A stretch of 64,000 bases of DNA from Chitinophagales bacterium. GTDB lineage: Bacteria; Bacteroidota; Bacteroidia; Chitinophagales; Chitinophagaceae. Below the pieces are notes generated by a model, which was given only the letters and a program-made list of their open reading frames with translations, ran no database searches and had not been told where the DNA came from. Shown in pieces: positions 47,148 through 61,400 of the stretch. Numbering within the stretch: the stretch's first letter is position 1; every line of letters starts with the position of its first letter. The DNA lies in NCBI GenBank assembly GCA_026931325.1, contig JAIXLO010000160.1:248001-312000 (forward strand), given 5' to 3'. Position numbers and translations under genes: made by a program.

Positions 47148-47167
47148 ACCCATAATTAAATGATGCT

Positions 47168-48957: not shown

Positions 48958-48976
48958 AAAATAAACAAAATGTTTT

Positions 48977-49020
48977 GGCATGTTTATTGCAGATAATGAT
49001 AATAGATCGCATCTTAGTAG
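48977..49020 (+). promoter_or_regulatory. Sigma54-like promoter with leader P1
   Basis: TTGGCATGTTTATTGC (GG 48977, GC ends 48990), 14 nt to leader AGATCGCATCTTAGTAG. Drives 49036. Confidence 0.8.
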
Positions 49021-49035
49021 CTATGTTCTAATGAT

Positions 49036-49227
49036 ATGAACGCCAAGAAAAGCAGTAAGAACGGTAAGAATAAGTGCCAGAAGCCGCCCTTTTGGGCGGT
49101 CGAGGCGATAAACTATAAGGATATTTATTTCGGATGTTGTGATTCCGTGATTCCTTACTGCTTCGATAACTCCGATTGGGATTGCAACAAGGAGGAGAAG
49201 TTATGTTCATCGCAATGTGGGCATTGA
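49036..49227 (+). CDS. Small Cys-rich protein, hypothetical
   Basis: 63 aa with seven Cys (GCCDSV, YCFDNSDWDCN, CSSQCGH) and a Lys/Asn-rich start. First gene of the right block. No good SD, so the start and even the coding status are uncertain; promoter P1 lies just upstream. Confidence 0.5.
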   Translation: MNAKKSSKNGKNKCQKPPFWAVEAINYKDIYFGCCDSVIPYCFDNSDWDCNKEEKLCSSQCGH

Positions 49228-49262
49228 CGCCCTACATTGTCGCTGAGCTTCGCAAGTTATGA
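49203..49262 (+). CDS. Very small hydrophobic peptide
   Basis: 19 codons (MFIAMWALTPYIVAELRKL) after a perfect AAGGAGG Shine-Dalgarno 6-7 nt upstream. It overlaps the end of the previous ORF in another frame. Resembles the coupled 34-aa membrane peptide at 53729 in style. Confidence 0.5.
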   Translation: MFIAMWALTPYIVAELRKL

Positions 49263-49290
49263 TGTTTTTATCTGTTTTTTTATTAAAGTT

Positions 49291-49329
49291 GGTATTTGGT
49301 TTGCAATATATAGTAGCAAGATGCATACC
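49291..49329. promoter_or_regulatory. Convergent sigma54-like module 2
   Basis: Forward GG at 49291, GC ends 49304; reverse GC starts 49316, CC ends 49329. Both arms match GG-N10-GC. It lies upstream of the hairpin RNA at 49396. Confidence 0.75.
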
Positions 49330-49395
49330 AAGTAAATTTTTTTATAATAAATAGCAATACTTACATATTGTTTTTGAGAGATATTGATTAGAAGC

Positions 49396-49450
49396 GCCCG
49401 CTTGGTGTCCGCTGCATTAGACTCGGAGACATGCAACCAAGGATAGCGGT
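49396..49450 (+). ncRNA. Structured RNA element, copy 1
   Basis: An outer stem CTTGGT/ACCAAG (49401/49436) encloses TGT-CCG paired with CGG-AG-ACA and a loop GCTGCATT. A second copy at 60903 keeps the structure, with CCG/CGG changed to CTG/CAG, a compensatory change. No coding capacity. Transcription from module 2 is possible. Confidence 0.6.
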
Positions 49451-49531
49451 CAAAAAATAGACCTCACTAAGAAAGTTGACTCTAAAAATCTTTTTCTTCT
49501 TGAAAAGGAATAGATCTTTTTTACCTTGATT

Positions 49532-49573
49532 GGCACATTTCTTGCATGTAAGGATAAAAGATCGCATCTAAGT
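49532..49573 (+). promoter_or_regulatory. Sigma54-like promoter with leader P2
   Basis: TTGGCACATTTCTTGCA (GG 49532, GC ends 49545), then 14 nt to AGATCGCATCTAAGT. Drives 49591. Confidence 0.82.
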
Positions 49574-49590
49574 TTATTGTTATTGTGGAT

Positions 49591-49833
49591 ATGGCAACCG
49601 CAAAAGTTACGAATGCAGGTTTCGCGTCTCATCTTGTGAAGATGGGTTATGAGGTTATGCTCGCCAACGTGCCCAGCAATGGGCGAGCGCCGGAGTTTCG
49701 GGTACAGATGAAGCAGACCAGCCGCAAGGCTCGGTCGGAGTTTAGCAAACTGTATTGGCAATACTGGAAATGGAGCGAGCCTTATTGGTGCGAGATAGAC
49801 ATGACATATAAAAATTATGTCATTCCTCGCTAA
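49591..49833 (+). CDS. Small hypothetical protein
   Basis: 80 aa from ATG 49591 (a GTG two codons earlier is possible). Basic, with an aromatic C-terminal half KLYWQYWKWSEPYW. Single-gene unit behind P2. Not recognised. Confidence 0.6.
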   Translation: MATAKVTNAGFASHLVKMGYEVMLANVPSNGRAPEFRVQMKQTSRKARSEFSKLYWQYWKWSEPYWCEIDMTYKNYVIPR

Positions 49834-49876
49834 GTTTATGTTGTTTTTGGTATTATTTTTGTTCCGATTAGCTCTT

Positions 49877-49915
49877 GGCATATAATATGCAATATATATT
49901 TACAAAAATAACGCC
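49877..49915. promoter_or_regulatory. Convergent sigma54-like module 3
   Basis: Forward GG 49877, GC ends 49890; reverse element 13 nt on with AC at its -12. A degenerate forward element (GT at -12) precedes it near 49851. Confidence 0.65.
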
Positions 49916-49931
49916 AATATAAGTTCGTGTT

Positions 49932-49975
49932 GGCATATACCTTGCAATGAATAATAAAGGATCGCATCTAAGTAA
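49932..49975 (+). promoter_or_regulatory. Sigma54-like promoter with leader P3
   Basis: TTGGCATATACCTTGCA (GG 49932, GC ends 49945), 14 nt to GGATCGCATCTAAGTAA. Drives 49994. Confidence 0.83.
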
Positions 49976-49993
49976 CTAATAGAAGTAAGTACC

Positions 49994-50485
49994 ATGCAAA
50001 ACCTCATCTGCCTCGTCGCCTCTGTTGTTTCTGTTTCCGCCGTTTGCGAGACGGTTGGAGTAACCATTTACATCGGGGGAACCCCCGCCTCCGATCCTGA
50101 CATGCTCAGGTATACTAACCCTAGGTGCCATCACAGCTTGGATGACGCTCTTTCAGAAGAGCACGTTGAATATATCCTTGCCTCTGGCGGCAAAGATTGG
50201 TCGTGGGAATATGCCACATGCGAATGTTGGGGGAAAGAATATCTCGCCAGGTTGCAGCAAACGGCTAGCGGCACTTGCCGAACTTGGAAGAACATTCGCA
50301 CCGAAGCGCAATATCAGGGGTATGGCATATTGCCAATCTTGTTCAAAGAGTATGGGTTGTTCGGAGCCAAGATGATGACTTGGTTATCTTTATCTATTGT
50401 AGGTTTATGTTGGTATTATTTTTGCTCCGATTATGTCTTGGCATATAATGTGCAATATATACTTACAAATATAATACCAATATAA
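49994..50485 (+). CDS. Hypothetical protein whose frame runs through the next promoter region
   Basis: 163 aa with a hydrophobic N-terminus (LICLVASVVSVSAVC), possibly a signal sequence, and several Cys. From about residue 131 the codons are those of the repeated promoter elements (GG-N10-GC at 50412 and 50440), which elsewhere are intergenic. The native stop may have been lost, or the gene may be shorter through a frameshift. Confidence 0.5.
   Translation: MQNLICLVASVVSVSAVCETVGVTIYIGGTPASDPDMLRYTNPRCHHSLDDALSEEHVEYILASGGKDWSWEYATCECWGKEYLARLQQTASGTCRTWKNIRTEAQYQGYGILPILFKEYGLFGAKMMTWLSLSIVGLCWYYFCSDYVLAYNVQYILTNIIPI
50440..50478. promoter_or_regulatory. Convergent sigma54-like module 4
   Basis: Forward GG 50440, GC ends 50453; reverse element starting 50465 (AC) with CC ending 50478. 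Another forward match is at 50412-50425. Confidence 0.65.
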
Positions 50486-50494
50486 ATTTGTGTT

Positions 50495-50538
50495 GGCACA
50501 TATCGTGCAACGAATGATAAAGGATCGCATCTAAGTAG
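50495..50538 (+). promoter_or_regulatory. Sigma54-like promoter with leader P4
   Basis: TTGGCACATATCGTGCA (GG 50495, GC ends 50508), 14 nt to GGATCGCATCTAAGTAG. Drives 50554. Confidence 0.82.
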
Positions 50539-50553
50539 ATATGCGGCTGATAT

Positions 50554-50862
50554 ATGGCAACACTCAAACTCGGCGGTCAGGCTTCTAAGTTTTCCACCGC
50601 TACCGTTACGGTAGCTTCGGGGGCGCGGAGCCCCGAAACTCGCGCAATCGGGGAGGGGAAGGCGGCTATGCTCATGTATGAAAACTCAACTAAGCGTCGT
50701 GACTTTCCTTTGACCAAGAAGAACGTTGAAAAGATATTCGCAACGTTCGAGGCGCTTGAACGCTTCGGACACGATACGTCTGAGGCTGAAGGCGAGTTTA
50801 TAGCAATCTTGAATAAGGATTGGGGCGACCGGGCGATAGACTTGTTGCCTGATGAGGATTGA
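50554..50862 (+). CDS. Hypothetical protein
   Basis: 102 aa, with a Ser/Thr/Ala-rich N-terminal third and a helical acidic C-terminus (GDRAIDLLPDED). A GC-rich hairpin (GGGGC/GCCCC) lies within the coding region near 50620. Single-gene unit. Confidence 0.65.
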   Translation: MATLKLGGQASKFSTATVTVASGARSPETRAIGEGKAAMLMYENSTKRRDFPLTKKNVEKIFATFEALERFGHDTSEAEGEFIAILNKDWGDRAIDLLPDED

Positions 50863-50917
50863 AACCAGAAAGTTTGATATGATGTACTTGGTATTATTTT
50901 TGCTCCGGCTATATCTT

Positions 50918-50956
50918 GGCGCACAATATGCAATATAGTTTAGCAATAATAGTGCC
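50918..50956. promoter_or_regulatory. Convergent sigma54-like module 5
   Basis: Forward GG 50918, GC ends 50931; reverse GC 50943, CC ends 50956; both perfect GG-N10-GC. A lone forward element is at 50890-50903. Confidence 0.75.
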
Positions 50957-50981
50957 AAATATTTTGATTGTCATGCCTCCT

Positions 50982-51025
50982 GGCATGATATATGCAAGTA
51001 ACGATAATAGATCGCATCTAAGTAA
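50982..51025 (+). promoter_or_regulatory. Sigma54-like promoter with leader P5
   Basis: CTGGCATGATATATGCA (GG 50982, GC ends 50995), 14 nt to AGATCGCATCTAAGTAA. Drives 51035. Confidence 0.82.
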
Positions 51026-51034
51026 GAAAGGACT

Positions 51035-51253
51035 ATGAACATGCACAACTACCACATCACCGGGACCGTTCTCTTGAATCGCAAAGCCGTCAAGGTCGAT
51101 TGCGCAAATGCGTTTGCAAAAGATGTGAATGCCTGCCTATCAAACGGCAGGCAAGCGCTGGAGCAAGCCGCGCGGGCAAGCGGCGCTTTGAAGCGGGGAG
51201 ATAAGCTACCTGTTGGAATCGAACGCGGATTGGTGTATACGCCTAAGAGCTAA
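51035..51253 (+). CDS. Small basic protein, hypothetical
   Basis: 72 aa, with SD AAAGGA before the ATG. An Ala/Arg-rich helix (QALEQAARASGALKRG) in the middle. Followed by a terminator at 51260. Confidence 0.68.
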   Translation: MNMHNYHITGTVLLNRKAVKVDCANAFAKDVNACLSNGRQALEQAARASGALKRGDKLPVGIERGLVYTPKS

Positions 51254-51259
51254 CGAGAT

Positions 51260-51284
51260 AGGGTGAGGGGAGGCACCCTGTTTT
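51260..51284 (+). terminator. Probable Rho-independent terminator
   Basis: Stem AGGGTG/CACCCT with an 8-nt loop followed by GTTTTG, 6 nt after the stop at 51253. Confidence 0.65.
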
Positions 51285-51308
51285 GATTCCACTGTAACTT
51301 ATCACGCA

Positions 51309-51347
51309 GGCACTATTGTTGCAATATATATTAGCAAAATATAAGCC
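51309..51347. promoter_or_regulatory. Convergent sigma54-like module 6
   Basis: Forward GG 51309, GC ends 51322; reverse GC 51334, CC ends 51347. A degenerate forward element (GA at -12) follows at 51365. Confidence 0.75.
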
Positions 51348-51392
51348 AAGCTAAAAAAGATTTTGGCATAATTTTTGATTCGCGTGCCGCTT

Positions 51393-51436
51393 GGCACGAT
51401 TTTTGCAAGTAATGATAACGGATCGCATCTTAGTAG
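51393..51436 (+). promoter_or_regulatory. Sigma54-like promoter with leader P6
   Basis: TTGGCACGATTTTTGCA (GG 51393, GC ends 51406), the closest match to the sigma54 consensus in the window; 14 nt to GGATCGCATCTTAGTAG. Drives 51483. Confidence 0.87.
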
Positions 51437-51482
51437 ATAACAAGTATAGTTGGCTGAATAAGCCAGAAAGAGAGTGTATCCC

Positions 51483-52256
51483 ATGGCTAAGAATAACAGC
51501 GCTATCGTTCTCCTGTCTTCTCTCCTGTCGGCTTCGCCCTTCGCTTCTGTCAGTGAGGCGAAAGGTTTTCTTGCGGGGTTTCTTGCCGCTCGCAAAGTGC
51601 CCGCTGAGGCTATCGGTTTGCCAGAGGCGGCAATCTATGACAGGATTATCAAGCCTAGGCTGATTAGCCTGGTTTGCTCGCTTTATGGCGAGAACGCACA
51701 CAATAGGATGCCATTGGGCATTCTCGTTGACGCGGCAATCAATGCCGCGAAACGTACCATTGACCCCATAAAGGCGAAAGAATCGCTTAGGGTCAATAAG
51801 GGGTCGTGGGTTGCGCTGAAACTTAGCGCCGATAAGCTCACGATTCGTGATTGGCTGGCGAGGCAACGTTGCGCCAACCTTGACGCTTCAGAATCTCTTA
51901 GGAGTTTTACGCTGTTCCTCGACCGTGCGCGCCAGTATGAAAAGATGGCGCAAAGCAAGGTTGATACGACTTCCGAGCAATCGGAAGAGTATGCGAAACA
52001 AGCGGCTGCTCTGTTGCACCGCGCAAAGGTAGAAGCGAGCGAGTTTATAGGACAGGTTTGCAAGTCTGTCCGCTACTTCAGCTTGATTGAAACGGTCGGT
52101 TATGATCCTGAACCGTTGCCTTGGGATGTGTGGGGGCTTGAAAGCCCGGAGGTGCAGAATCTACTTTCGCGAGCCGCGTATGCGGAGGAGAAAGGGGGAA
52201 CGGTTGACCGCGCTCAGCTTCTAGAGCTAGTTATGTTCTACCTTGCCGGCATCTAA
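51483..52256 (+). CDS. Hypothetical protein
   Basis: 257 aa from ATG 51483 (a GTG at 51474 is in frame). Largest unrecognised protein of the early-type block; Ala/Leu-rich and mainly helical, with a Ser-rich start. Followed by a GNRA-loop terminator at 52275. Confidence 0.72.
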   Translation: MAKNNSAIVLLSSLLSASPFASVSEAKGFLAGFLAARKVPAEAIGLPEAAIYDRIIKPRLISLVCSLYGENAHNRMPLGILVDAAINAAKRTIDPIKAKESLRVNKGSWVALKLSADKLTIRDWLARQRCANLDASESLRSFTLFLDRARQYEKMAQSKVDTTSEQSEEYAKQAAALLHRAKVEASEFIGQVCKSVRYFSLIETVGYDPEPLPWDVWGLESPEVQNLLSRAAYAEEKGGTVDRAQLLELVMFYLAGI

Positions 52257-52274
52257 TATATAGATGCACACATG

Positions 52275-52306
52275 AACCTACGCGAGAGCGTGGGTTTTGC
52301 TGTTTT
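52275..52306 (+). terminator. Rho-independent terminator with GAGA loop
   Basis: Stem AACCTACGC/GCGTGGGTT closing a GAGA tetraloop, followed by a broken T run. Confidence 0.7.
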
Positions 52307-52331
52307 ACAGTATGGCTAAAATACAGCCGGA

Positions 52332-52345
52332 GCAAATATTGTGCC
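52332..52345 (-). promoter_or_regulatory. Minus-strand sigma54-like element
   Basis: On the minus strand TGGCACAATATTTGC, a GG-N10-GC match without a nearby forward partner. No gene directly downstream on that strand is evident. Confidence 0.4.
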
Positions 52346-52362
52346 ATTTTTTATTTGTGTTT

Positions 52363-52400
52363 GGTATTTGTTTTGCAATATATATTGCTAATAGTATACC
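52363..52400. promoter_or_regulatory. Convergent sigma54-like module 7
   Basis: Forward GG 52363, GC ends 52376; reverse GC 52387, CC ends 52400. Confidence 0.73.
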
Positions 52401-52417
52401 AACAGCCAAGTTACATT

Positions 52418-52461
52418 GGAATCAAATTTGCAAGGAAGGATAATAGATCGCATCTAAGTAA
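52418..52461 (+). promoter_or_regulatory. Sigma54-like promoter with leader P7
   Basis: TTGGAATCAAATTTGCA (GG 52418, GC ends 52431; A replaces C at the position after GG), 14 nt to AGATCGCATCTAAGTAA. Drives 52501. Confidence 0.78.
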
Positions 52462-52500
52462 GAATAGAGCAATGGTGTACGCAAACCCAAACAACGGAGA

Positions 52501-53034
52501 ATGAACATGCACACTTCTATGCTGCTTGCCGTGGTTGCTGGTCTGGTCGTTTCTTTCGATAGCGTGGCTCGCGGGAAGCGCCACGCTTATTACAGCGCTC
52601 AAAACAACCTGGCAAAGAAGTCTGAAAAGGTTTTCGCGCCCTTCCGTGGGTTCTTGGAAGAGCATGGGTGCAGGATTGAAAACGTTTATGGTGTTCGTAA
52701 TAAGGCTTCTTTCCGTAAGGATTCGGATTGCTTGGTTAGCCAAGCTGCATGGCAACATATCTTTAACTTGAGCGAGACTGCTTGCAAACGTCAGGAAGAG
52801 AATGAGAAGCTGGCTCTGAATGAGCTAAACCAGGCAGGTCGCAAGTTTTACCAAGAGAATGAGAAGCTCTTTCAAGCTCTCCAGGCAGAGTTTGAAAAGG
52901 AAGAAGAGTTGCTTGATTGTGTCGCGTCTCTCAATCACTTTCAAGATGGATTGATTACCTTGGATGAATGTTTCGGTGGAATCCTCTCATGCCTGGATTC
53001 GCAAAAGTTAGATAGCTTAGATATATGTATGTGA
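52501..53034 (+). CDS. Hypothetical protein with hydrophobic N-terminus
   Basis: 177 aa. An N-terminal hydrophobic segment (MLLAVVAGLVVSFDSVARG) could be a membrane anchor or signal, followed by a long charged helical region (ETACKRQEENEKLALNEL). It shares a layout with 53196, which also begins with a short hydrophobic stretch. Confidence 0.68.
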   Translation: MNMHTSMLLAVVAGLVVSFDSVARGKRHAYYSAQNNLAKKSEKVFAPFRGFLEEHGCRIENVYGVRNKASFRKDSDCLVSQAAWQHIFNLSETACKRQEENEKLALNELNQAGRKFYQENEKLFQALQAEFEKEEELLDCVASLNHFQDGLITLDECFGGILSCLDSQKLDSLDICM

Positions 53035-53070
53035 TTATTTTTGGCATTATTTTTGCTCCGTTTATATCTT

Positions 53071-53109
53071 GGCACATAATGTGCAATATAGATTAGCAAA
53101 AATAGTACC
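53071..53109. promoter_or_regulatory. Convergent sigma54-like module 8
   Basis: Forward GG 53071, GC ends 53084; reverse GC 53096, CC ends 53109. A lone forward element precedes it at 53043-53056. Confidence 0.76.
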
Positions 53110-53136
53110 AATAGATTTTTGACTTCTTTGCCACTT

Positions 53137-53180
53137 GGCATAGTATATGCATGTAAGGATAAGGGATCGCATCTAAGTAA
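53137..53180 (+). promoter_or_regulatory. Sigma54-like promoter with leader P8
   Basis: TTGGCATAGTATATGCA (GG 53137, GC ends 53150), 14 nt to GGATCGCATCTAAGTAA. Drives 53196-53833. Confidence 0.83.
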
Positions 53181-53195
53181 GAAAGAGGCTAAGAC

Positions 53196-53732
53196 ATGAA
53201 CAACGCCGCTAAGCTCGCTACGGTTCTCGCTGCTATCGTTTCTTTCCGCAAGATGGTTGACGAGCAGACGAAAGAATGCCGCGTCAAGGTGTACCGCGCT
53301 GATGACTCTTACGCCAAGATTCGTCATAGTCTACTGGACACGTTTGAACCCATGACCGATGAGGCGGGTATCGGCTTCGATAATCTCGATTGTGCTATCG
53401 AGGTCGTTGCAGACCGCATGACCGATGGGTCTTTGGATTATGTGGAACGTGAGGCTTGGGCTCACATCAATAGCTTGATTGTCTCGCCTCGATTGCGCGT
53501 TGCCTACGACAAGCGTAAGGCGGCGAGAAAGATGTTGAATGATGTAGAACGTGGCATCTACGCTGCTAATAGGGGTTTTATCCAATGCCTTGTAGAAAAG
53601 ACGAGCGGCATCTTGGATATTGCTAGGATGGCGCAAGAGCTTGAAGCTGGCACGCTGCCTCTAACGTCATTCTTGTCTTGTGTCATGAGCACGATTGAAC
53701 ACAGGCTCGCTGAGAAAGGTGATCAGTTATGA
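53196..53732 (+). CDS. Hypothetical helical protein
   Basis: 178 aa, related in size and general pattern to 52501 (a hydrophobic start, a mid-protein EAWAHINSL versus AAWQHIFNL, a long helix, and a terminal acidic region). Probably a diverged paralog. Overlaps the 34-aa peptide gene by 4 nt. Confidence 0.68.
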   Translation: MNNAAKLATVLAAIVSFRKMVDEQTKECRVKVYRADDSYAKIRHSLLDTFEPMTDEAGIGFDNLDCAIEVVADRMTDGSLDYVEREAWAHINSLIVSPRLRVAYDKRKAARKMLNDVERGIYAANRGFIQCLVEKTSGILDIARMAQELEAGTLPLTSFLSCVMSTIEHRLAEKGDQL

Positions 53733-53833
53733 CCAAAGCTGCTGAGGTAGTTACGATTCTCATGCTGTGCTTTCCTTTCGTGCTGACCTTTGCCGGGTTG
53801 GCGGAGAAAGCTAAAGAAAAGAAGTTAGCGTAA
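53729..53833 (+). CDS. Small membrane peptide
   Basis: 34 aa, ATGA-coupled to the preceding gene. One clear transmembrane helix (VVTILMLCFPFVLTFAGLA) then a basic tail KAKEKKLA. A host-membrane-targeted peptide is plausible. Confidence 0.62.
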   Translation: MTKAAEVVTILMLCFPFVLTFAGLAEKAKEKKLA

Positions 53834-53856
53834 GTATGTATGTGATTGTTTGACTT

Positions 53857-53870
53857 GGTATTATTTTTGC
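53857..53870 (+). promoter_or_regulatory. Lone forward sigma54-like element
   Basis: TTGGTATTATTTTTGCTCCG, the standard upstream type-A element; the same sequence recurs at 50412 and 50890, and close variants at 53043, 55725 and 55896. Confidence 0.6.
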
Positions 53871-53884
53871 TCCGCCCATATCTT

Positions 53885-53923
53885 GGCACACTATATGCAA
53901 TATAGGTTAGCACAAATAATACC
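53885..53923. promoter_or_regulatory. Convergent sigma54-like module 9
   Basis: Forward GG 53885, GC ends 53898; reverse GC 53910, CC ends 53923. Confidence 0.75.
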
Positions 53924-53950
53924 AGAATAAATTTGTCTTCTTTGGCGCTT

Positions 53951-53994
53951 GGCATAAGTTTTGCAAGAGATGATAACGGATCGCATCTTAGTAA
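53951..53994 (+). promoter_or_regulatory. Sigma54-like promoter with leader P9
   Basis: TTGGCATAAGTTTTGCA (GG 53951, GC ends 53964), 14 nt to GGATCGCATCTTAGTAA. Drives 54010. Confidence 0.83.
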
Positions 53995-54009
53995 AAGAAA
54001 GATGTTGAT

Positions 54010-54240
54010 ATGAGCGAGCGCATGACAGATGAGCAGTATTACGCTTGGAAAACTTGGATTGCTACTGACAAGGCGGTTTGGAATCGCCTTATGGCTTTTC
54101 ATGAAGTGCCAAGCCAAGAAAACCTGGACAATAAACTTATGATGCTTCAGATGAGGGATGAGGCGAATAATCAGTGCGCCCGTCTAGGTGTCCCTAACTT
54201 CAAGACCTGCAAGATTATTGACTACAGCTTGGATTACTGA
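54010..54240 (+). CDS. Small hypothetical protein
   Basis: 76 aa, Met/Asn-rich and helical, with an aromatic N-terminal region (YYAWKTW). Single-gene unit, no motif recognised. Confidence 0.65.
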   Translation: MSERMTDEQYYAWKTWIATDKAVWNRLMAFHEVPSQENLDNKLMMLQMRDEANNQCARLGVPNFKTCKIIDYSLDY

Positions 54241-54287
54241 CTCTAATCTGTGATATGTTGGTATATGTTTTGCTTCGGTTATATCTT

Positions 54288-54326
54288 GGCATAGCATTTG
54301 CAATATATAATAGCAATAAGAGAACC
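54288..54326. promoter_or_regulatory. Convergent sigma54-like module 10
   Basis: Forward GG 54288, GC ends 54301; reverse GC 54313, CC ends 54326. Lone forward elements lie on both sides (54260 and 54354). Confidence 0.75.
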
Positions 54327-54381
54327 ATTTCAAATATTCTATAATTATAGATTGGTATAGATTTTGCTTCGATTGCCGCCT

Positions 54382-54425
54382 GGCACAACTCTTGCAAGAA
54401 ACAATGTTGGATCGCATCTTAGTAA
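54382..54425 (+). promoter_or_regulatory. Sigma54-like promoter with leader P10 (structured RNA/tRNA unit)
   Basis: CTGGCACAACTCTTGCA (GG 54382, GC ends 54395), 14 nt to GGATCGCATCTTAGTAA. The only unit in the series that leads to RNA rather than to an ORF. Confidence 0.83.
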
Positions 54426-54913
54426 GTATGGTGCAAGAGTGTAGCAAGGCTGAAAGCAAAACGGCGCAACGTTGACCGCCGGGCGGTTAGCTTCAATAAC
54501 TAATCGTCAATGAGCGTTGCATAAGGCTAACAATCTAGCCGAAAGGTTAGTACCATGATAAACCCAAAGTTTCGTATAGATTAGCCCCGTCGTGATAGCC
54601 GCTGCGGTGGCTATTGTAAGGGGCAGAAACCCAGAAACCTAAAGCTAGGAAAAGCAGAGTAAGAAGGATTGCCTAGTTATGCTAGCTAACTATGGCATGT
54701 CATCTGCATTCTGTTTCCGCAAGAAAGCTAAGGGTTAGGGTTCCTTCCTAGTGAAACGACTAACTAGGATGGCTCGGTTTAGGTTGTCAGTGACCCTTCC
54801 GAGTAGAATAAGAATAACTGTCTGGTGGTTTCGCCATAAAAGAAACCCCTGAAGTTTTCCAAGTTAGATAAGGATTAGCCCGCTATTATGGGCGGCAAAC
54901 ATAACTTGGGCGC
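54409..54913 (+). ncRNA. Large structured noncoding RNA upstream of tRNA-Lys
   Basis: No ORF over about 490 nt, but at least nine self-complementary stems: GCAACG/CGTTGC (54466/54515) enclosing TTGAC/GTCAA, CTAGCC-GAAA-GGTTAG (54535), GCCCC/GGGGC enclosing ATAGCC/GGCTAT (54584-54624), TAGTTA/TAACTA (54674/54687), TCCTAGT/ACTAGGA (54746/54763), CTCGG/CCGAG, GGTTTC/GAAACC, and CCAAGTTA/TAACTTGG (54859/54902) enclosing GCCC/GGGC. Position next to phage tRNAs recalls large ornate RNAs such as GOLLD or ROOL; family membership is unproven. Transcribed from P10. Confidence 0.72.
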
Positions 54914-54986: not shown

Positions 54987-55029
54987 CAATAGCTTATTCT
55001 AAGCACAATAACTTAGCTTTACTTATTCA

Positions 55030-55169: not shown

Positions 55170-55192
55170 ACCGCACACACAAGAGGCTAACT

Positions 55193-55699: not shown

Positions 55700-55724
55700 T
55701 ATCTAATATCTATATGTTGTTCTT

Positions 55725-55766
55725 GGTATTATTTTTGCCTCGACCAACCCTTGGCATATTATTTGC
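55725..55766 (+). promoter_or_regulatory. Two tandem forward sigma54-like elements
   Basis: GG-N10-GC at 55725-55738 and 55753-55766, starting 26 nt after the stop of 55193. Confidence 0.6.
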
Positions 55767-55792
55767 TTTTAATAAAAAGCTTGTTGCACATA

Positions 55793-55869
55793 ACCATGCT
55801 TGGTATGGTCATTGCAGCTTTGCGCATTGTTGTGCCTTTGGCACAACCATTGCAATATATATTAGCAAA
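55793..55869. repeat. 77-bp repeat, copy 1
   Basis: Matches 60735-60811 at all but two positions. It contains forward sigma54-like elements at 55802 and 55840 and the inverted repeat TTGTGCC-TTT-GGCACAA. Confidence 0.9.
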
Positions 55870-55878
55870 ACATAAACC
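55840..55878. promoter_or_regulatory. Convergent sigma54-like module 11
   Basis: Forward GG 55840, GC ends 55853; reverse GC 55865, CC ends 55878. A forward element at 55896-55909 follows. Confidence 0.75.
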
Positions 55879-55923
55879 ATAACATTCTTGACATTGGTAT
55901 TATTTTTGCCCCGAATTTATCTT

Positions 55924-55967
55924 GGCATGATTATTGTATATAATGATAACGGATCGCATCTTAGTAA
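55924..55967 (+). promoter_or_regulatory. Sigma54-like promoter with leader P11 (degenerate -12)
   Basis: TTGGCATGATTATTGTA: the -12 dinucleotide is GT instead of GC (55936-55937), yet the 14-nt spacing to GGATCGCATCTTAGTAA is kept. Drives 56020. Confidence 0.7.
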
Positions 55968-56019
55968 GACTAATGCTTAGATGTAAGCAACGATAACGGA
56001 ACAACGAAAGGAAAACACC

Positions 56020-56451
56020 ATGTCGCATTCTTTCCCCTCCGCTGTGGTTTCCGCTAACGTCAACAATATCGACGCTTGCAAGGTTCGTTCTCGCGCTGCT
56101 CATCGTGCCGTCAAAACTTCCGTGGCTTTTGCAGAGGCGACAATCTCTCTGATGTTGTCTCAGGAGAAAGCTCTGTATAAGAAGCGCACTAGGCGCGGTG
56201 CTCCTAGCATGAACAGCAAGAGTTTTGCCGACGCGGTGTATGAGATTCTGTTCTCGTCCAATGGTCCTTTGACTGTTGACGAGATTGCAGACAAGTTGAG
56301 TCATGAAGGTTATGTGACTCGCAACAAGTGTGGGCTGCCTTTCGTTGTCATGCTAACTCTTCAGCAAGGCAAACGCGAAGGTTGGGCATTCAAAGATACC
56401 AAAAAGAAGAACCGCTGTACTCTTTGGTTCAATCTGTTAGCTAATAGCTAA
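56020..56451 (+). CDS. Winged-helix (HARE-HTH-like) protein
   Basis: 143 aa, SD GAAAGGAAAA. Residues 68-130 (SFADAVYEILFSSNGPLTVDEIADKLSHEGY...) match the HB1/ASXL/HARE-type winged helix in outline, with a beta wing GWAFKDTKKKNRCTLWF. Basic N-terminal half. A DNA-binding regulator of phage or host promoters is possible. Confidence 0.68.
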   Translation: MSHSFPSAVVSANVNNIDACKVRSRAAHRAVKTSVAFAEATISLMLSQEKALYKKRTRRGAPSMNSKSFADAVYEILFSSNGPLTVDEIADKLSHEGYVTRNKCGLPFVVMLTLQQGKREGWAFKDTKKKNRCTLWFNLLANS

Positions 56452-56514
56452 CTTATATCTGTTTCTGTATTCTTTTATCTATCAGACATTCTCTGCACAT
56501 AAGGAGGAACAACA

Positions 56515-56709
56515 ATGTTCGTGATGTTTTCTTGGCGCGAGTGCAACGAAAGCAAGTTTTGCATTATCGAAAACAAGCGAAGCAAGAAAGAGAAAGCTCT
56601 CAAGAAGCTACCCGAAGATTACAACATGACCCCAATCCCTTCTCAAAGGGAAGCGCTTGATTGGATACGTGACCTTACGAAACAAGGCTTTGCTTTCGTT
56701 TGCTTCTGA
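56515..56709 (+). CDS. Small hypothetical protein
   Basis: 64 aa after a perfect AAGGAGG. Basic middle (KRSKKEKALKKL), alpha/beta character. Second gene of the P11 unit. Confidence 0.65.
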   Translation: MFVMFSWRECNESKFCIIENKRSKKEKALKKLPEDYNMTPIPSQREALDWIRDLTKQGFAFVCF

Positions 56710-56766
56710 TATAACTCTCTTATGTTTTCTTTGATATTTTTTTTAATCCCACTGTAACTTACTCTT

Positions 56767-56805
56767 GGCATAGCATTTGCAATATATGATAGCAATATCA
56801 GGACC
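56767..56805. promoter_or_regulatory. Convergent sigma54-like module 12
   Basis: Forward GG 56767, GC ends 56780; reverse GC 56792, CC ends 56805. A forward element at 56831-56844 follows. Confidence 0.74.
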
Positions 56806-56869
56806 AACTATTTTGACTGCCGTGCGGCTTGGCATGATTCTTGCATAAAGAAAAGCATAAAAGTATATT

Positions 56870-56913
56870 GGCACGCGAGTTGCAATAAACGATAATAGAT
56901 CGCATCTAAGTAA
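56870..56913 (+). promoter_or_regulatory. Sigma54-like promoter with leader P12
   Basis: TTGGCACGCGAGTTGCA (GG 56870, GC ends 56883), 14 nt to AGATCGCATCTAAGTAA. Drives 56967. Confidence 0.84.
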
Positions 56914-56966
56914 GTGCCTGGCTATTGTGTAAGCGGCAATAACGCTGCTAAGGAGAATGATACATC

Positions 56967-57431
56967 ATGGCTAAGAACACTGAGACCGAAAAGACTGTTA
57001 CCCTCCCCTCGCTGGAGTCTGAGACGCCGTTTGGCGTCAATGACCTAAACACCATCTTTGCGCTTCTGGCGCCCTTCATGAAAGATTCGGGCGGTGATCC
57101 CGATGTTGTTGCGGAGAATGTCAGGGATTACTTGGCGCGAGCCAAAGAAGATAGCGTTGACTTGGATTCCAAGGTTTCCGAGCTTGTTGACAGGGCTCTG
57201 GAATCCAAAAAGAAAGATGGGCATAAGATGGCGAACATCTTGCCCTGGGTCGCATCGGAGATGGGTACCAGTATCGATGATATGGCTGCAACCCAGGAGT
57301 ATGTTAGGGCTTATGTCGAGCGTAATAGCTCGGAAAACCATGCTCTCAAAGCTCGCTACTTCCGGGTTGTGAAAGGTAGGAACGCTGGTGTGTGGCTCTG
57401 GAGCTACAAGCCCGAAGAGAAAGAGTTATAG
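56967..57431 (+). CDS. Hypothetical protein, paralog of 58362
   Basis: 154 aa, SD AAGGAGA. Shares with 58362 the segments DGHKMANILPWVAS, YVRAYVERNSSE and FRVVKGRNAGVWLW, about half of all residues. Acidic N-terminus. Followed by a strong terminator. Two co-retained copies suggest a dose- or target-dependent role. Confidence 0.72.
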   Translation: MAKNTETEKTVTLPSLESETPFGVNDLNTIFALLAPFMKDSGGDPDVVAENVRDYLARAKEDSVDLDSKVSELVDRALESKKKDGHKMANILPWVASEMGTSIDDMAATQEYVRAYVERNSSENHALKARYFRVVKGRNAGVWLWSYKPEEKEL

Positions 57432-57464
57432 ATAAGGGGGGGAGGGGGTTAAATCTACCTACCT

Positions 57465-57494
57465 GAGAGGCACGGGGGTTGCCTCTCTTTTTTT
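57465..57494 (+). terminator. Rho-independent terminator
   Basis: Perfect 8-bp stem GAGAGGCA/TGCCTCTC, 7-nt G-rich loop, then T7. Located 33 nt after the stop of 56967. Confidence 0.92.
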
Positions 57495-57529
57495 ATTTTT
57501 TGTTTACGGCTTTATTGTGTTTGGTATTT

Positions 57530-57567
57530 GGCACCATTTATGCAATATAATATGCAAAAGCTATACC
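57530..57567. promoter_or_regulatory. Convergent sigma54-like module 13
   Basis: Forward GG 57530, GC ends 57543; reverse GC 57554, CC ends 57567. Confidence 0.74.
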
Positions 57568-57586
57568 AATTGCACGTATATGTATT

Positions 57587-57630
57587 GGCATACAATTTGC
57601 AGTGTATGATAATAGATCGCATCTTAGTAG
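57587..57630 (+). promoter_or_regulatory. Sigma54-like promoter with leader P13
   Basis: TTGGCATACAATTTGCA (GG 57587, GC ends 57600), 14 nt to AGATCGCATCTTAGTAG. Drives 57675. Confidence 0.84.
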
Positions 57631-57674
57631 AGAGATTGGTTTAGTGTAGGTAAACGCTAACTAAAGAGGTTACC

Positions 57675-58031
57675 ATGTCATATGAAGGTCATGAGCAACA
57701 CTTCTGTAAAAATGGTCATCTTTTCACTGAAGATGATTGGATGAGCCGCGCTTCTATAAATGTACCTAAGTGCCCATATTGTCAGGAGGAAAGTGTTATC
57801 TGTAATCCTGTAGATGATACTAACTTCGAGTCTTATGGTATCATTCCTGACTTTGAGCTTGCCAAACTCATGATATCTAGCTCTTATGAGTGCAAGTGTG
57901 GTTGTCCAGTGAAACATATTGTTCCGGCTGTGTATCGTATTCCTTCTCGTGATGAGATTGAGCATATGCGTTACTATCAGCCCGATGATGGCGAGCTTAT
58001 CAAATTTATCAAACTTAAGAAGGGAAAGTAA
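57675..58031 (+). CDS. Zinc-ribbon-containing hypothetical protein
   Basis: 118 aa. FCKNGHLF, PKCPYCQEESVIC and YECKCGCPVKH supply two probable zinc sites. The alpha-helical C-terminus is basic (FIKLKKGK). More AT-rich in codon use than its upstream neighbours. Confidence 0.66.
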   Translation: MSYEGHEQHFCKNGHLFTEDDWMSRASINVPKCPYCQEESVICNPVDDTNFESYGIIPDFELAKLMISSSYECKCGCPVKHIVPAVYRIPSRDEIEHMRYYQPDDGELIKFIKLKKGK

Positions 58032-58070
58032 TATACTCCTATTCATAAGGTTATTGAAAATAATAATCTT

Positions 58071-58136
58071 GGCATTATTTTTGCCCCCTCCGTCAATTGG
58101 CACAAAATTTGCAATATTATAAGCATTTATAATACC
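58071..58136. promoter_or_regulatory. Forward sigma54-like element plus convergent module 14
   Basis: Lone element TTGGCATTATTTTTGC at 58071-58084, then forward GG 58099, GC ends 58112, facing reverse GC 58123, CC ends 58136. Confidence 0.74.
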
Positions 58137-58154
58137 AACACACATATATAGATT

Positions 58155-58193
58155 AGCATGTAATTTGCAATATATAATAGCAAAAGAAACGCC
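58155..58193. promoter_or_regulatory. Convergent sigma54-like module 15
   Basis: Degenerate forward arm (AG at -24, GC ends 58168) facing a perfect reverse arm GC 58180, CC ends 58193. Second module in the same intergenic region. Confidence 0.62.
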
Positions 58194-58239
58194 AACGTAT
58201 ATTATAGTTTTGGCACGATTTTTGACTGCTCCGGCGCTT

Positions 58240-58280
58240 GGCATGATTCTTGCATGAATACTGATTGGTATGATTCTTGC
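58240..58280 (+). promoter_or_regulatory. Two tandem forward sigma54-like elements
   Basis: TTGGCATGATTCTTGCA at 58240 and TTGGTATGATTCTTGCA at 58267 lie between module 15 and P14; this is the densest cluster in the window. Confidence 0.65.
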
Positions 58281-58302
58281 AAGTTTGCGCGTGATAATGT
58301 TT

Positions 58303-58346
58303 GGCATAGTATATGCAGATAAGGATGGCGGATCGCATCTAAGTAA
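58303..58346 (+). promoter_or_regulatory. Sigma54-like promoter with leader P14
   Basis: TTGGCATAGTATATGCA (GG 58303, GC ends 58316), 14 nt to GGATCGCATCTAAGTAA. The core is identical to P8. Drives 58362. Confidence 0.83.
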
Positions 58347-58361
58347 GTATGTGGCTGTAAC

Positions 58362-58850
58362 ATGAGCAAGAAAGCCGATAAGCAAGCCGTTGAAACTGTC
58401 AAGCTCCCCGCGTTGAACGCTGAGAATCAAAAGCCGTTCAGCGTTGCTGAGCTGAACCTGCTTAACAGCCTATTGTTGCCTTTCATGGCGGCGCATGGCG
58501 AGGTCGAGCCAACCCTTGCCAATATCAAAGCCTATCTTTTGCGCATGAAGGAAGATAGCTCTACCCTTGACAAGCGGGTTGCAGAGCTAGTCGATGAGAC
58601 TTTGACCGAAGCCGGTAAGGACGGTCGAAAGATGGCAAACATTCTTCCTTGGGTTGCATCTTCAATGGGAACGCCTATTGATGGCATGGCTGAAGCTCAG
58701 GATTATGTGCGTTCGTTTATCGAACGTAATAGTTCGGAAAGTCATGCGCTTGAAGCGCTATACTTCCGGGTCGTGAAGGGGCGCAATGCCGGTGTGTGGT
58801 TGTGGACCTACAAGCCAGAGGAAGAGGAAGAGTTAGATAGATTAGCTTAG
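58362..58850 (+). CDS. Hypothetical protein, paralog of 56967
   Basis: 162 aa, diverged duplicate of 56967 sharing MANILPWVAS, ERNSSE and FRVVKGRNAGVWLW, with a longer Lys/Gln-rich N-terminus and an acidic EEEEELDRLA tail. Ends in TAG. Confidence 0.72.
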   Translation: MSKKADKQAVETVKLPALNAENQKPFSVAELNLLNSLLLPFMAAHGEVEPTLANIKAYLLRMKEDSSTLDKRVAELVDETLTEAGKDGRKMANILPWVASSMGTPIDGMAEAQDYVRSFIERNSSESHALEALYFRVVKGRNAGVWLWTYKPEEEEELDRLA

Positions 58851-58883
58851 TTCTTAGCTTAGTTTATTATCTGTATTCTAACG

Positions 58884-58971
58884 ATTATTCGCTAGAGTAT
58901 AAAAGCATACAAGCAAGTATTGAATAGGTAATATACAGGCGCTTGTGTGTTTATATATTCTAGCGAATAAT
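58884..58971. repeat. Large inverted repeat (18-bp arms)
   Basis: ATTATTCGCTAGAGTATA (58884-58901) and its near-perfect reverse complement (58954-58971, 17/18) enclose an inner ACAAGC/GCTTGT pair. A TATTCCAGCGAA sequence resembling the right arm follows at about 58979, just before the 59000 gene. Candidate operator or structured RNA. Confidence 0.75.
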
Positions 58972-58999
58972 GTTTTATATTCCAGCGAAAGGATGACCA

Positions 59000-59197
59000 A
59001 TGACGTTTCTGTTTCACATATGGTATGTTTGGGCGATTGTACTTTATATTGCTTCGTTTCTGTTTTATTGGTTGCAAAACGAGCAATATCGTTCTTTTGC
59101 AGAGAATGTGTTTTACAAGCTAGTGATAAGACCCGCATACTTTGGTGCAGGTTTTCTCTTGTGCGCAAGCGCGCTTTATTACTGTCTACATCCGTAG
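59000..59197 (+). CDS. Small membrane protein
   Basis: 65 aa, SD GAAAGGATG. Two hydrophobic helices (FLFHIWYVWAIVLYIASFLF and AYFGAGFLLCASALYYC) separated by a charged loop. It follows the dyad at 58884 rather than a P-type promoter. Ends in TAG. Confidence 0.66.
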   Translation: MTFLFHIWYVWAIVLYIASFLFYWLQNEQYRSFAENVFYKLVIRPAYFGAGFLLCASALYYCLHP

Positions 59198-59217
59198 CCT
59201 AATAAGGTAATCATACC

Positions 59218-59352
59218 ATGAAACCAAGGAATAGCTTTGCGCTTGCTGCTGCTCTTATGCGTGCAAGCAAGGTAGAATCTAAGAAGAATAAGAATAAAAG
59301 CAAAGCCAAGCGTAAAGTTTGGCGTAAAGAGATTCGCGAGAATCAAGAATAG
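59218..59352 (+). CDS. Small very basic protein
   Basis: 44 aa, strongly Lys/Arg-rich C-terminus ([20 protein letters not shown]). Nucleic-acid binding is plausible. Ends in TAG. Between two membrane-protein genes. Confidence 0.58.
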
Positions 59353-59362
59353 AGGAAAGAAT

Positions 59363-59647
59363 ATGAGTAAGAAAGAAGATACAAGCAAAACTAAGATCAA
59401 TAATCCTACCCGAGAGTTTGCTAACTTTCTAGCACTTCAAAAGCTAGAGGGTTGTGAAACGGACAATGAAGGGCAAGTGATTGTTTATACGGGCATATAT
59501 AAGTGGAGTGATGGTAGTTATCATACCGTTTCTGAGCATGAGTTAGCAAAGTATAAAACAAGAAAGAATGTCCTGAGAGGACTAGCTTTCGCTTCATTGG
59601 CTACACTTGCCGGTGTAGCTGCATGGGTAGCAACAGAAGTAAAGTAA
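59363..59647 (+). CDS. Small membrane protein, hypothetical
   Basis: 94 aa, SD GAGGAAAG. Soluble N-terminal two-thirds, then a C-terminal transmembrane helix ([18 protein letters not shown]). Likely tail-anchored. Confidence 0.64.
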
Positions 59648-59654
59648 GGATATC

Positions 59655-59822
59655 ATGCAAACTCAAACTTGCCCTGATTGCAATGGCGAGCGCACGCTTA
59701 CATTGCCTAACCTTGCCTGTATGAAACCAGGTACTACAACCTATTACATTGACTGTAAAAGGTGCAATAATACGGGGAAAGTTTCTGAGGTACCCGTAAA
59801 GAAGAAAACTCGCTTGAAATAA
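59655..59822 (+). CDS. DnaJ-type zinc-finger mini-protein
   Basis: 55 aa with CPDCNGE and CKRCNNTGK, two CxxCxG-like half-sites as in the DnaJ central zinc finger, and a basic C-terminus. SD AAGGAT. Last gene of the 59.0-59.8 kb cluster. Confidence 0.66.
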   Translation: MQTQTCPDCNGERTLTLPNLACMKPGTTTYYIDCKRCNNTGKVSEVPVKKKTRLK

Positions 59823-59911
59823 TAAGAGAATAGATAGCTTGGCACGATATTTGCGGGGTAAATTTTTATTGTGGCGATTTGTGTTTTTTTTGTGTATTGG
59901 TGGATATGTTT

Positions 59912-59949
59912 GGCATTCCCCTTGCAATATAAGGAGCAATAAGTGTGCC
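59912..59949. promoter_or_regulatory. Convergent sigma54-like module 16
   Basis: Forward GG 59912, GC ends 59925; reverse GC 59936, CC ends 59949. A lone forward element TTGGCACGATATTTGC is at 59841-59854. Confidence 0.74.
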
Positions 59950-59958
59950 AAGATCATT

Positions 59959-60002
59959 GGCGCGGATATTGCAATAAAGGATAAAGGATCGCATCTAAGG
60001 AA
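59959..60002 (+). promoter_or_regulatory. Sigma54-like promoter with leader P15
   Basis: TTGGCGCGGATATTGCA (GG 59959, GC ends 59972), 14 nt to GGATCGCATCTAAGGAA (G for T near the leader end). Drives 60080. Confidence 0.8.
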
Positions 60003-60079
60003 GGCATAAGTTACAGTGAGCCGGTAATCGGCAAGAATCATTCCACAGTAGAAAACACCTAATAAAACGAGGGTTTCTA

Positions 60080-60409
60080 ATGTCTAACACTTTCGGCACT
60101 ACTAGTTGCGATATTGGTTATTCTGCGATGTTGCTGGCTATTTCTGAGGCTGGTATTCATCCTAAGAATAGTAGATTCAATAAATGTATTGATCATATCT
60201 TTTTTGTTGAAGTTTGGGGAGAAGCTGAGAAACTTATTGCTCTAATGAGTAAGATTGGTGATATGTGTTGCGTCTATAATCCTCCTGATCCTATTTATCA
60301 AAAGGAAGCTTTTCTTATTATTGATACAGATTTTAAATATCTTCCCCTAACTGAAGAAGATATTAAAAAGATTGAAGATGCTATTGCTAAATATTGTTTA
60401 GTAAAGTAA
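60080..60409 (+). CDS. Hypothetical protein
   Basis: 109 aa, alpha/beta. AT-richer codon use than genes at 50-57 kb. An acidic C-terminal helix (TEEDIKKIEDAIAKYC). Four nt before the next start. Confidence 0.66.
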   Translation: MSNTFGTTSCDIGYSAMLLAISEAGIHPKNSRFNKCIDHIFFVEVWGEAEKLIALMSKIGDMCCVYNPPDPIYQKEAFLIIDTDFKYLPLTEEDIKKIEDAIAKYCLVK

Positions 60410-60412
60410 ATC

Positions 60413-60646
60413 ATGATTGATCTATTTAATCTTAGAGTTGGTGATAGAGTTTGTTTTATGATTCCTGAGAGGAGCGGCTATAGTCTTGGCTTTGGTGATG
60501 TAGAAAAGATTAACATTACACGCAGTCGCAAAAGTATAGACGTGATTGATCGTAAGTTTCCTGGAGAGACTAAACTTAAAGTAAATATAAAACTTATTTA
60601 TAAAATAATAAAGAAAGAAGATTTGATTAATCTTAGTTTGAAATAA
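60413..60646 (+). CDS. Small SH3-like barrel protein, hypothetical
   Basis: 77 aa, beta-rich (LRVGDRVCFMIPE...GFGDVEKINITR), resembling small barrel proteins. Co-transcribed with 60080. Confidence 0.6.
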   Translation: MIDLFNLRVGDRVCFMIPERSGYSLGFGDVEKINITRSRKSIDVIDRKFPGETKLKVNIKLIYKIIKKEDLINLSLK

Positions 60647-60734
60647 TATATTACCAATAGGCGTGTGCATATATACGTGTGTATATGTTTTCGGCATGAT
60701 TATTGCCAGAAATGAGCTAAGCTCATTTCGCATG

Positions 60735-60811
60735 ACCATGCTTGGCATGGTCATTGCAGCTTTGCGCATTGTTGTGCCTTTGGCACAACCATTGCAATAT
60801 AGATTAGCAAA
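60735..60811. repeat. 77-bp repeat, copy 2
   Basis: Copy of 55793-55869 with two differences. It carries forward elements at 60744 and 60782 plus the TTGTGCC-TTT-GGCACAA dyad. Another forward element is at 60693. Confidence 0.9.
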
Positions 60812-60820
60812 GTACATGCC
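60782..60820. promoter_or_regulatory. Convergent sigma54-like module 17
   Basis: Forward GG 60782, GC ends 60795; reverse GC 60807, CC ends 60820. No P-type promoter with leader follows; instead the structured RNA element at 60903 lies downstream. Confidence 0.74.
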
Positions 60821-60899
60821 AAAGAAAAAAAAGATATTTTTTTATAAAATATAGGAATAATGTTTTATAAAAAAAGAGAGATAAGATATTTTTGAAAGC

Positions 60900-61306
60900 T
60901 TGCTTGGTGTCTGCTGCATTGGGACTCAGGAACATACAACCAAGAACCGATTAGATAAAATAGATTATCAATCAAAACAATAGAATAAGAAAGATAAGTT
61001 TATATCTTTTGTTATTAAGAGTCGAAGTCTTTCAAGGTCGCTTTTCGAGAGGAAAGAAGGAGTCACGATGAGAGAATTAATAATAAGAGAAAAATAAATG
61101 TAATTAAAGTAAGATTATATTTATTTTAGATAACTAAATAAAGTCTACCAATAGACTAGCTGACCTGAGAAATCAGACGATAAAAGTGAAGAGTAGAAAC
61201 TATATTTAGAAAGATTATGAGCTTAAAAAAAGTCATTCATAAAAATGATATAATATATTTTTGTCTTTTGCTCCTAGGAAAATCTGATTCCTATTTGGAG
61301 TTTTTT
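60900..61306 (+). ncRNA. Candidate noncoding RNA beginning with structured element copy 2
   Basis: No ORF from 60647 to 61440. Copy 2 of the hairpin (CTTGGT 60903 / ACCAAG 60939; inner TGT-CTG with CAG-GA-ACA) is followed by more stems: TCTTTC/GAAAGA near 61029-61055, AGTCTA-CCAA-TAGACT near 61143, and a terminator. The extent is inferred from the terminator; the start is unknown. Confidence 0.5.
61271..61306 (+). terminator. Rho-independent terminator
   Basis: CTCCTAGGAA pairs with TTCCTA...GGAG across a 7-nt loop, with a 3-nt bulge, followed by six T. Confidence 0.82.
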
Positions 61307-61356
61307 GAGTTTATATATAATAGGTATTGGCATATATTTTGCCCCGCAACGCGCTT

Positions 61357-61400
61357 GGCATGACATTTGCATCTGAGGATATTGGATCGCATCTTAGTAA
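61357..61400 (+). promoter_or_regulatory. Sigma54-like promoter with leader P16
   Basis: TTGGCATGACATTTGCA (GG 61357, GC ends 61370), 14 nt to GGATCGCATCTTAGTAA. A forward element at 61329-61342 precedes it. Last of the series in this window. Drives 61441. Confidence 0.84.

Follow-up and report, generated by a model that had tools for sequence, protein, structure and literature searches.

A 64,000-nucleotide (nt) stretch of DNA binned with a Chitinophagales bacterium (hereafter the window; positions 248001-312000 of the 383,427-base contig JAIXLO010000160.1, called C75 below) carries sixteen copies of a compound element, in which a GG-N10-GC box is joined at an invariant distance to a conserved leader sequence. 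We propose that the boxes serve a jumbo tailed phage as promoters of the sigma54 class, which would be read by the RNA polymerase of the host carrying RpoN, and that each of them is joined on its downstream side to an element specific to the phage. Judging from the DNA sequence, we place the probability of this reading at about 0.7. The sigma54 character of the boxes themselves appears likely.

Each unit is composed of a -24/-12 box of 17 nt, 12 nt of intervening sequence and the leader. The leader sequence RGATCGCATCTWAGTA is exact in 14 of the 16 units and has one mismatch in those starting at 49559 (ending AGTT) and 59986 (ending AGGA). As the earlier note had claimed, the sixteen GG-N10-GC elements stand at a fixed offset of 14 from the last C to the leader (13 nt between); in every unit the GG lies 27/26 nt and the GC 15/14 nt before the leader, including the unit with its leader at 55951, which has GT instead of GC. 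The arrangement extends beyond the window. The sequence GATCGCATCT is found in 40 copies in the same genome, all on the forward strand, 36 on C75 and 4 on C181, a 35-kilobase (kb) contig that bears the same elements. A GG at the unit register (-27/-26), by which we define class A (boxed) leaders, precedes 26 of the 40 copies (16 in the window, 8 elsewhere on C75 and 2 on C181); all 26 are in one register, 25 with GC and one with GT. For the other 14 leaders (class B), no box was found at any of the offsets examined, no 16-mer that starts between -40 and -17 scoring above 2.4 bits.

The earlier note assigned the element to the sigma54 (RpoN) -24/-12 type and suggested scoring it against shuffled sequence; the assignment fits in sequence, in spacing and with an independent matrix, which was constructed from 29 intergenic Salmonella sites printed in PMC3844500. 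With this matrix, 15 of the 16 window units scored 16.1-23.4 bits, as compared with 15.8-23.3 bits for the Salmonella sites, and unit 7 (leader at 52445) failed with 8.2 bits. The ten units outside the window scored 15.0-23.1 bits against a slightly different background, nine of them at least 15.8. Hits of at least 13 bits numbered 52 in the right 15.1 kb of the window (45 on the forward strand), versus a mean of 1.85 and a maximum of 6 in 20 dinucleotide shuffles of this block; there were 2 in the left 48.9 kb, and 7 in 100 kb taken from seven other contigs of the bin. When gaps of 0-12 nt between [CT]TGGCAY and TTGC were counted in C75:296-364 kb, the gap was 5 nt in 35 of 37 pairs on the forward strand and in 4 of 4 on the other. 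A consensus of bacterial sigma54 -24/-12 promoters is said to have been compiled by Barrios et al. in 1999. PMC4641369 gives the Desulfovibrio elements as tGGcacg and tTGCt. Because PMC3844500 assigns GG to -24 and TGC to -12, counted from the start, transcription from the units would begin about 2 nt before the leader.

The units, all on the forward strand, lie as follows, with the leader start and the score in the Salmonella-site matrix in parentheses: unit 1, 48975..49019 (49004; 19.4 bits), with an ATG 16 nt after the leader; unit 2, 49530..49574 (49559; 19.9); unit 3, 49930..49974 (49959; 17.6); unit 4, 50493..50537 (50522; 17.8); unit 5, 50980..51024 (51009; 18.2); unit 6, 51391..51435 (51420; 23.4); unit 7, 52416..52460 (52445; 8.2, outside the range of known sites), with the weak box TTGGAATCAAATTTGCA; unit 8, 53135..53179 (53164; 16.1); unit 9, 53949..53993 (53978; 18.6); unit 10, 54380..54424 (54409; 21.9), for which the next listed forward features are tRNA-Lys (54914) and tRNA-Ile (55030); unit 11, 55922..55966 (55951; 16.4), the unit with GT at -12; unit 12, 56868..56912 (56897; 21.9); unit 13, 57585..57629 (57614; 19.3); unit 14, 58301..58345 (58330; 16.1); unit 15, 59957..60001 (59986; 16.8); and unit 16, 61355..61399 (61384; 21.7).

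One could also read the units as ordinary sigma70-type promoters, with TTGGCA as the -35 element, a 17-nt spacer and GATAAT as the -10 element, and TTGGCA-N17-GATAAT or -GATGTT can indeed be seen by eye in units at the right spacing. We give this reading hardly any credence, because the would-be -10 element is poorly kept, its last base being T in just 14 of the 26 class A units, and because no such -10 element is visible by eye in the listed contexts of boxes that are not linked to a leader. Furthermore, the sigma70 reading leaves the near-invariant TTGCA within the spacer unexplained, and the -7 motif of the primary sigma factor of Bacteroidota, TAnnTTTG, is unmatched in most class A units.

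The two leader classes have a core, AAnGATR, in common; in boxed units this core comes before the point where transcription is expected to start. In class A (n = 26), A is found at -9 in 22 copies and at -8 in 26, G at -6 in 24, A at -5 in 26, T at -4 in 26 and a purine at -3 in 26. In class B (n = 14), the conserved flank consists of A at -13 (14 copies), A at -10, -9 and -8 (12, 13 and 13), G, A and T at -6, -5 and -4 (11, 13 and 14) and G, T and T at -3, -2 and -1 (12, 10 and 14). The view of the earlier note that the leader is simply the common 5' end of transcripts from these promoters is not supported: because 14 of the 40 copies are without a box and the shared core precedes the expected start, the leader is a separate element and cannot be only a 5' tag set by sigma54 initiation.

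The class B leaders are located at 46298 and 47168 of the window, between C75:9511 and C75:85653, and at C181:16248 and C181:31751. Seven of the 12 on C75 begin within 25 nt past the stop codon of an upstream open reading frame (ORF) of at least 80 amino acids; of the remainder, those at C75:13389, 59724 and 73519 are farther from ORF stops, that at C75:65523 lies within an ORF end, and that at 46298..46313 of the window (forward strand; C75:294298) is just outside a reverse ORF, its best upstream 16-mer scoring -0.7 bits. The copy at 47168..47178 (forward strand) is a shortened leader, GGATCGCATCT, with a best upstream 16-mer of -7.9 bits, and is positioned upstream of a release-factor-like gene (47230-48336). 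PCRF and RF-1 were each seen once in a grouped Pfam scan and were assigned to that gene by inference.

The conservation of AAnGATR and leader both with and without a box would be expected if the leader were the downstream half of a promoter for a phage-encoded RNA polymerase or sigma factor, and a 150-amino-acid phage protein (C75:145835-146287) matches Sigma70_r4 above the curated cut-off (26.4 versus 24.1 bits, E 4.9e-6). We nevertheless consider such a promoter very unlikely, as no RNA polymerase family appeared among the Pfam matches listed for 140 of the 162 C75 ORFs of at least 215 amino acids, the grouped scans listing 25 of 36, 42 and 43 families and smaller ORFs having hardly been scanned. 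A second Sigma70_r4 match, at C75:180975-182186, proved to be a LAGLIDADG endonuclease carrying helix-turn-helix matches and was set aside.

Behind the leader, an ORF of at least 40 amino acids begins with ATG exactly 16 nt downstream in 9 of the 26 boxed and 1 of the 14 unboxed copies, and a start codon followed immediately by a stop lies exactly 14 nt downstream in 7 of 26 and 1 of 14, respectively. In the window, the start-stop arrangement is seen behind the leaders at 54409, 55951, 56897, 57614 and 61384. No ORF of 40 amino acids occurs within 130 nt of C181:16248, and hence no start codon was read there. Other identities considered for the leader gained no support. A structured RNA was not supported by folding against shuffled sequences (class B mean z -0.78, n = 14, owed to a few sites; class A is given below), by ungapped alifold energies (0 and -0.04) or by Rfam, which gave no match over the leaders in window 45800-64000. 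An element read by a NusG paralogue, like the ops sequence, found no phage-encoded partner, as the NusG family (PF02357) had two matches in the bin, on C137 and C60, and none on C75 or C181. TTGGATCGCATCT resembles the 16S rRNA 3' end too weakly for a relation to be claimed.

The bin (3.1 megabases, 182 contigs) includes both C75 and C181. Profile scans of C75 identified an intein-containing terminase, DNA polymerase III alpha, tail sheath, baseplate wedge, RecA and topoisomerase, and the forward strand holds 515 of the 596 ORFs found by a greedy caller (minimum 50 amino acids; 94% covered). Given the terminase, tail sheath and baseplate wedge, and the concentration of ORFs on one strand, the sequence identifies C75 as a jumbo tailed phage that was binned with bacterial contigs. 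The co-binned bacterium is assigned to the Bacteroidota because a SusD profile has a match in the bin; the same profile matched 1 of 14 control genomes, a Bacteroides. We infer that this bacterium is the host of the phage, and likewise that the region of the units is an early one. RpoN (PF04552) is matched at one place in the bin, a 495-amino-acid ORF on C158, and the activator domain PF00158 at six places, three of them strong; neither family has a match above cut-off on C75 or C181.

Many boxes are not linked to a leader, and these often lie upstream of the linked ones in tandem and convergent arrays. In C75:296-364 kb, a 17-nt matrix trained on the units found 86 sites of at least 9 bits, as compared with 6-14 in five Markov controls; this matrix is circular for the units and was superseded there by the Salmonella-site matrix. 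With the latter (at least 13 bits; the same region together with C181), 28 of 29 spacings of up to 70 nt between neighboring forward boxes fall at 26-66 nt, the commonest being 28 nt (6 of 29). Convergent pairs with 25-26 nt between their starts number nine. Three of the ten units outside the window also have additional boxes upstream. In the window, the unit-trained matrix places tandem boxes at 53041 and 53069, with a spacing of 28 nt, ahead of unit 8 (53041..53111, forward), where a convergent box ending at 53111 was noted by eye below the 9-bit limit, and a convergent pair ahead of unit 5 (50916..50958, both orientations; forward at 50916, reverse at 50942; 16.9 and 13.3 bits). It also gives two forward boxes ahead of unit 12, at 56765 and 56829 (56765..56845), six forward boxes at 58069, 58097, 58153, 58210, 58238 and 58265 upstream of unit 14 (58069..58281), and forward boxes at 60691, 60742 and 60780 with a convergent one at 60806 (60691..60822). 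Helical phasing of the spacings was not upheld, since control periods performed similarly and in this phage a period of 9 beats 10.5. Hairpins seen by eye cover some of the -24 elements and could end the preceding transcript; one of them, CGTGCC-GCTT-GGCACG near 51385, lies over the -24 element of unit 6 and is followed by ATTTTTGC.

Box arrays are also found in other, uncultured viruses. At least 120 IMG/VR stretches matched a pattern of two strict boxes separated by 8-38 nt, and none matched the reversed pattern. Among 394 other genomes of the host phylum (395 sampled), no double box was found, the matches in the phage's own genome being on C75 and C181; as the two collections differ greatly in size, this comparison is no proof that the arrays are phage-specific. 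We analyzed 80 loci (L218-L297) from among the IMG/VR matches, which contained 99 clusters of at least two boxes, or 84 after reduction of redundancy; an example of a tandem TTGGCAY-N5-TTGCA array lies on the minus strand of L219 at 10193-10405. Of 171 spacings of up to 62 nt, 56 fall at 26-29 nt and 38 at 46-50 nt. Intergenic placement is not established for these loci, because a crude caller (ORFs of 60 amino acids or more) leaves only 26 of the 84 clusters largely outside its ORFs. The sequence AAGTGTG[AT]G follows a box at 24 places, related contigs included, at 25 nt past the TGG of the box in 10 cases, 35-37 nt in 13 and 43 nt in one. At 25 nt, it is near the expected start, as in L221, L225, L228, L242, L243, L246, L261, L275, L289 and L292. 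Two arrays used as blastn queries returned no named phage with an array: the second had no match, and the first had two weak ones (E 0.02 and 0.8) in the Vibrio phages VPT02 and VPG01 (Demerecviridae). In each of these, a single RpoN-type box (L338 3074 and L339 2655) is positioned near one end, at the edge of a stretch of about 1.36 kb that has no annotated genes.

The arrays raise the question of whether the boxes are instead operators for a phage or host regulator that shares the sigma54 recognition sequence, with cooperative binding across arrays and with the leader-linked box adjoining a core promoter made up of AAnGATR and the leader. Leader-less boxes in such numbers, in tandem at 28 nt or as convergent pairs, are unusual for promoters, and the recurrence of double boxes in viral contigs would suit operators. 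Against this stands the finding that the boxes match the sigma54 matrix at its conserved positions and keep its strict spacing, and we think the operator reading unlikely.

Several observations weigh against our proposal of host-read sigma54 promoters. Several polymerases would not be expected to find room on boxes spaced by 26-28 nt, or on convergent boxes whose starts are separated by 25-26 nt, so that the spacing would also suit a smaller DNA-binding protein. Unit 7, moreover, reaches just 8.2 bits, and no RNA structure was found in the class A leaders (mean folding z +0.11, n = 26). The link between phage and host is based on co-binning and similar G+C content. One of the three strong activators reads GSFTSA instead of the expected GAFTGA, and a helix-turn-helix could not be made out by eye at its C-terminus. 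On C75 itself, a LAGLIDADG endonuclease has a PF04552 match below cut-off (19.5 versus 22.8 bits, E 8.4e-4) amid many helix-turn-helix matches. Finally, no 8-mer is shared by more than 5 of the 10 units outside the window within 200 nt upstream, the commonest being A/T-rich; some sigma54 activators work without an upstream binding site.

Searches by terminase, helicase and tail sheath found no close relative of the phage, the matches to named phages all being below 60% identity. The exact leader was found in 18 IMG/VR stretches; these matches are ascribed to chance because none has a box at the register and because six of the records, searched whole with 2 mismatches allowed, hold one leader copy each. 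The combination of TTGCA and leader matched two stretches of the genome contig collection, neither with a -24 box, and the combination of box and AAnGATR matched 13 IMG/VR stretches, each with a single box and no leader behind it. A 14-mer scan gave no leader array among the matches listed. A scan of 396 genomes of the order found 1-2 matches (at most 1 mismatch) in 25, not counting the phage's own genome, and no array among them.

The units of the window lie in a block of distinct composition. The G+C fraction of C75 is 0.23-0.37 in 4-kb steps except at C75:296-308 kb, where it is 0.40-0.45, and in 2-kb steps window 48001-60000 reaches 0.45-0.48. Immediately before this block, AT-rich tandem repeats (TAGCTTATTGTAGCTT...) occupy 48414-48754. 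Of ten small proteins from window 48001-60000 scanned against PHROGs, one matched, to a family of unknown function. A weak match to the C-terminal domain of ribosomal L7/L12 was seen in the protein encoded at 55193-55699 (E 3.1e-5, 24.7 bits versus a cut-off of 25.9). Right behind tRNA-Ile, at 55104-55169, a 20-nt sequence, CACATAGCATCTAACGATTG, is present in 3.3 perfect copies and resembles the GCATCTAA of the leader.

How might the units work as sigma54 promoters? The host RpoN holoenzyme would bind TTGGCAY-N5-TTGCA as a silent closed complex, which a host activator ATPase would then open; transcription would start about 12 nt after the C at -12, at most about 2 nt from the leader, and boxed transcripts would therefore begin alike. 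The leader with its AAnGATR core, a separate phage element that also occurs without a promoter, may act on the RNA of the following gene or on its transcription complex, perhaps by marking or protecting phage messages or helping to load them. The extra tandem and convergent boxes upstream would probably raise the capture of RpoN polymerase at intergenic regions. A wider and rather doubtful hypothesis is that, in many phages, stacked sigma54 boxes are capture devices: the sigma54 polymerase of the host would be loaded onto the incoming DNA in silent closed complexes, and firing would occur at the gene-nearest box, to which a transcribed leader specific to the phage is fused. The present phage would then be the clearest case, as its invariant leader would also stand at internal operon sites so that messages would share one 5' tag, and a second viral group would have its own leader, AAGTGTG, by the box.

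The units share with bacterial sigma54 promoters the GG-N10-GC, TTGGCAY and TTGCA elements and the score range of sites identified by chromatin immunoprecipitation on microarrays (ChIP-chip). Unlike them, they are phage-borne, 26 of them stand in one register and are locked to a 16-nt downstream element, and they are accompanied by extra tandem and convergent boxes, with no enhancer site found. Early and middle promoters of the T4 type, which depend on the sigma70 polymerase and phage co-activators, are likewise many and near-identical and precede small phage genes, but T4 is not known to have sigma54 boxes. The stoperators of mycobacteriophage L5, asymmetric sites bound by a repressor, are likewise short, numerous and oriented one way across a phage genome; they differ in sequence, in being repressor-bound and in having no known tie to a leader. 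The ops elements, which are read by RfaH and other NusG paralogues, are also short, invariant one-way elements at operon starts, but they differ in sequence, and C75 and C181 are without a NusG-family match.

Transcription by sigma54 polymerase requires an ATP-driven activator and is thereby tied to the state of the host. In open-access literature, covered by titles and the openings of abstracts, we found no description of a phage with a large gene set under sigma54. If our proposal is true, such a gene set would couple the phage programme to host signalling. The presence of box arrays in many viral contigs poses the more general question of what binds to them; if the arrays load or trap the sigma54 polymerase of the host, they could become a new kind of promoter use.

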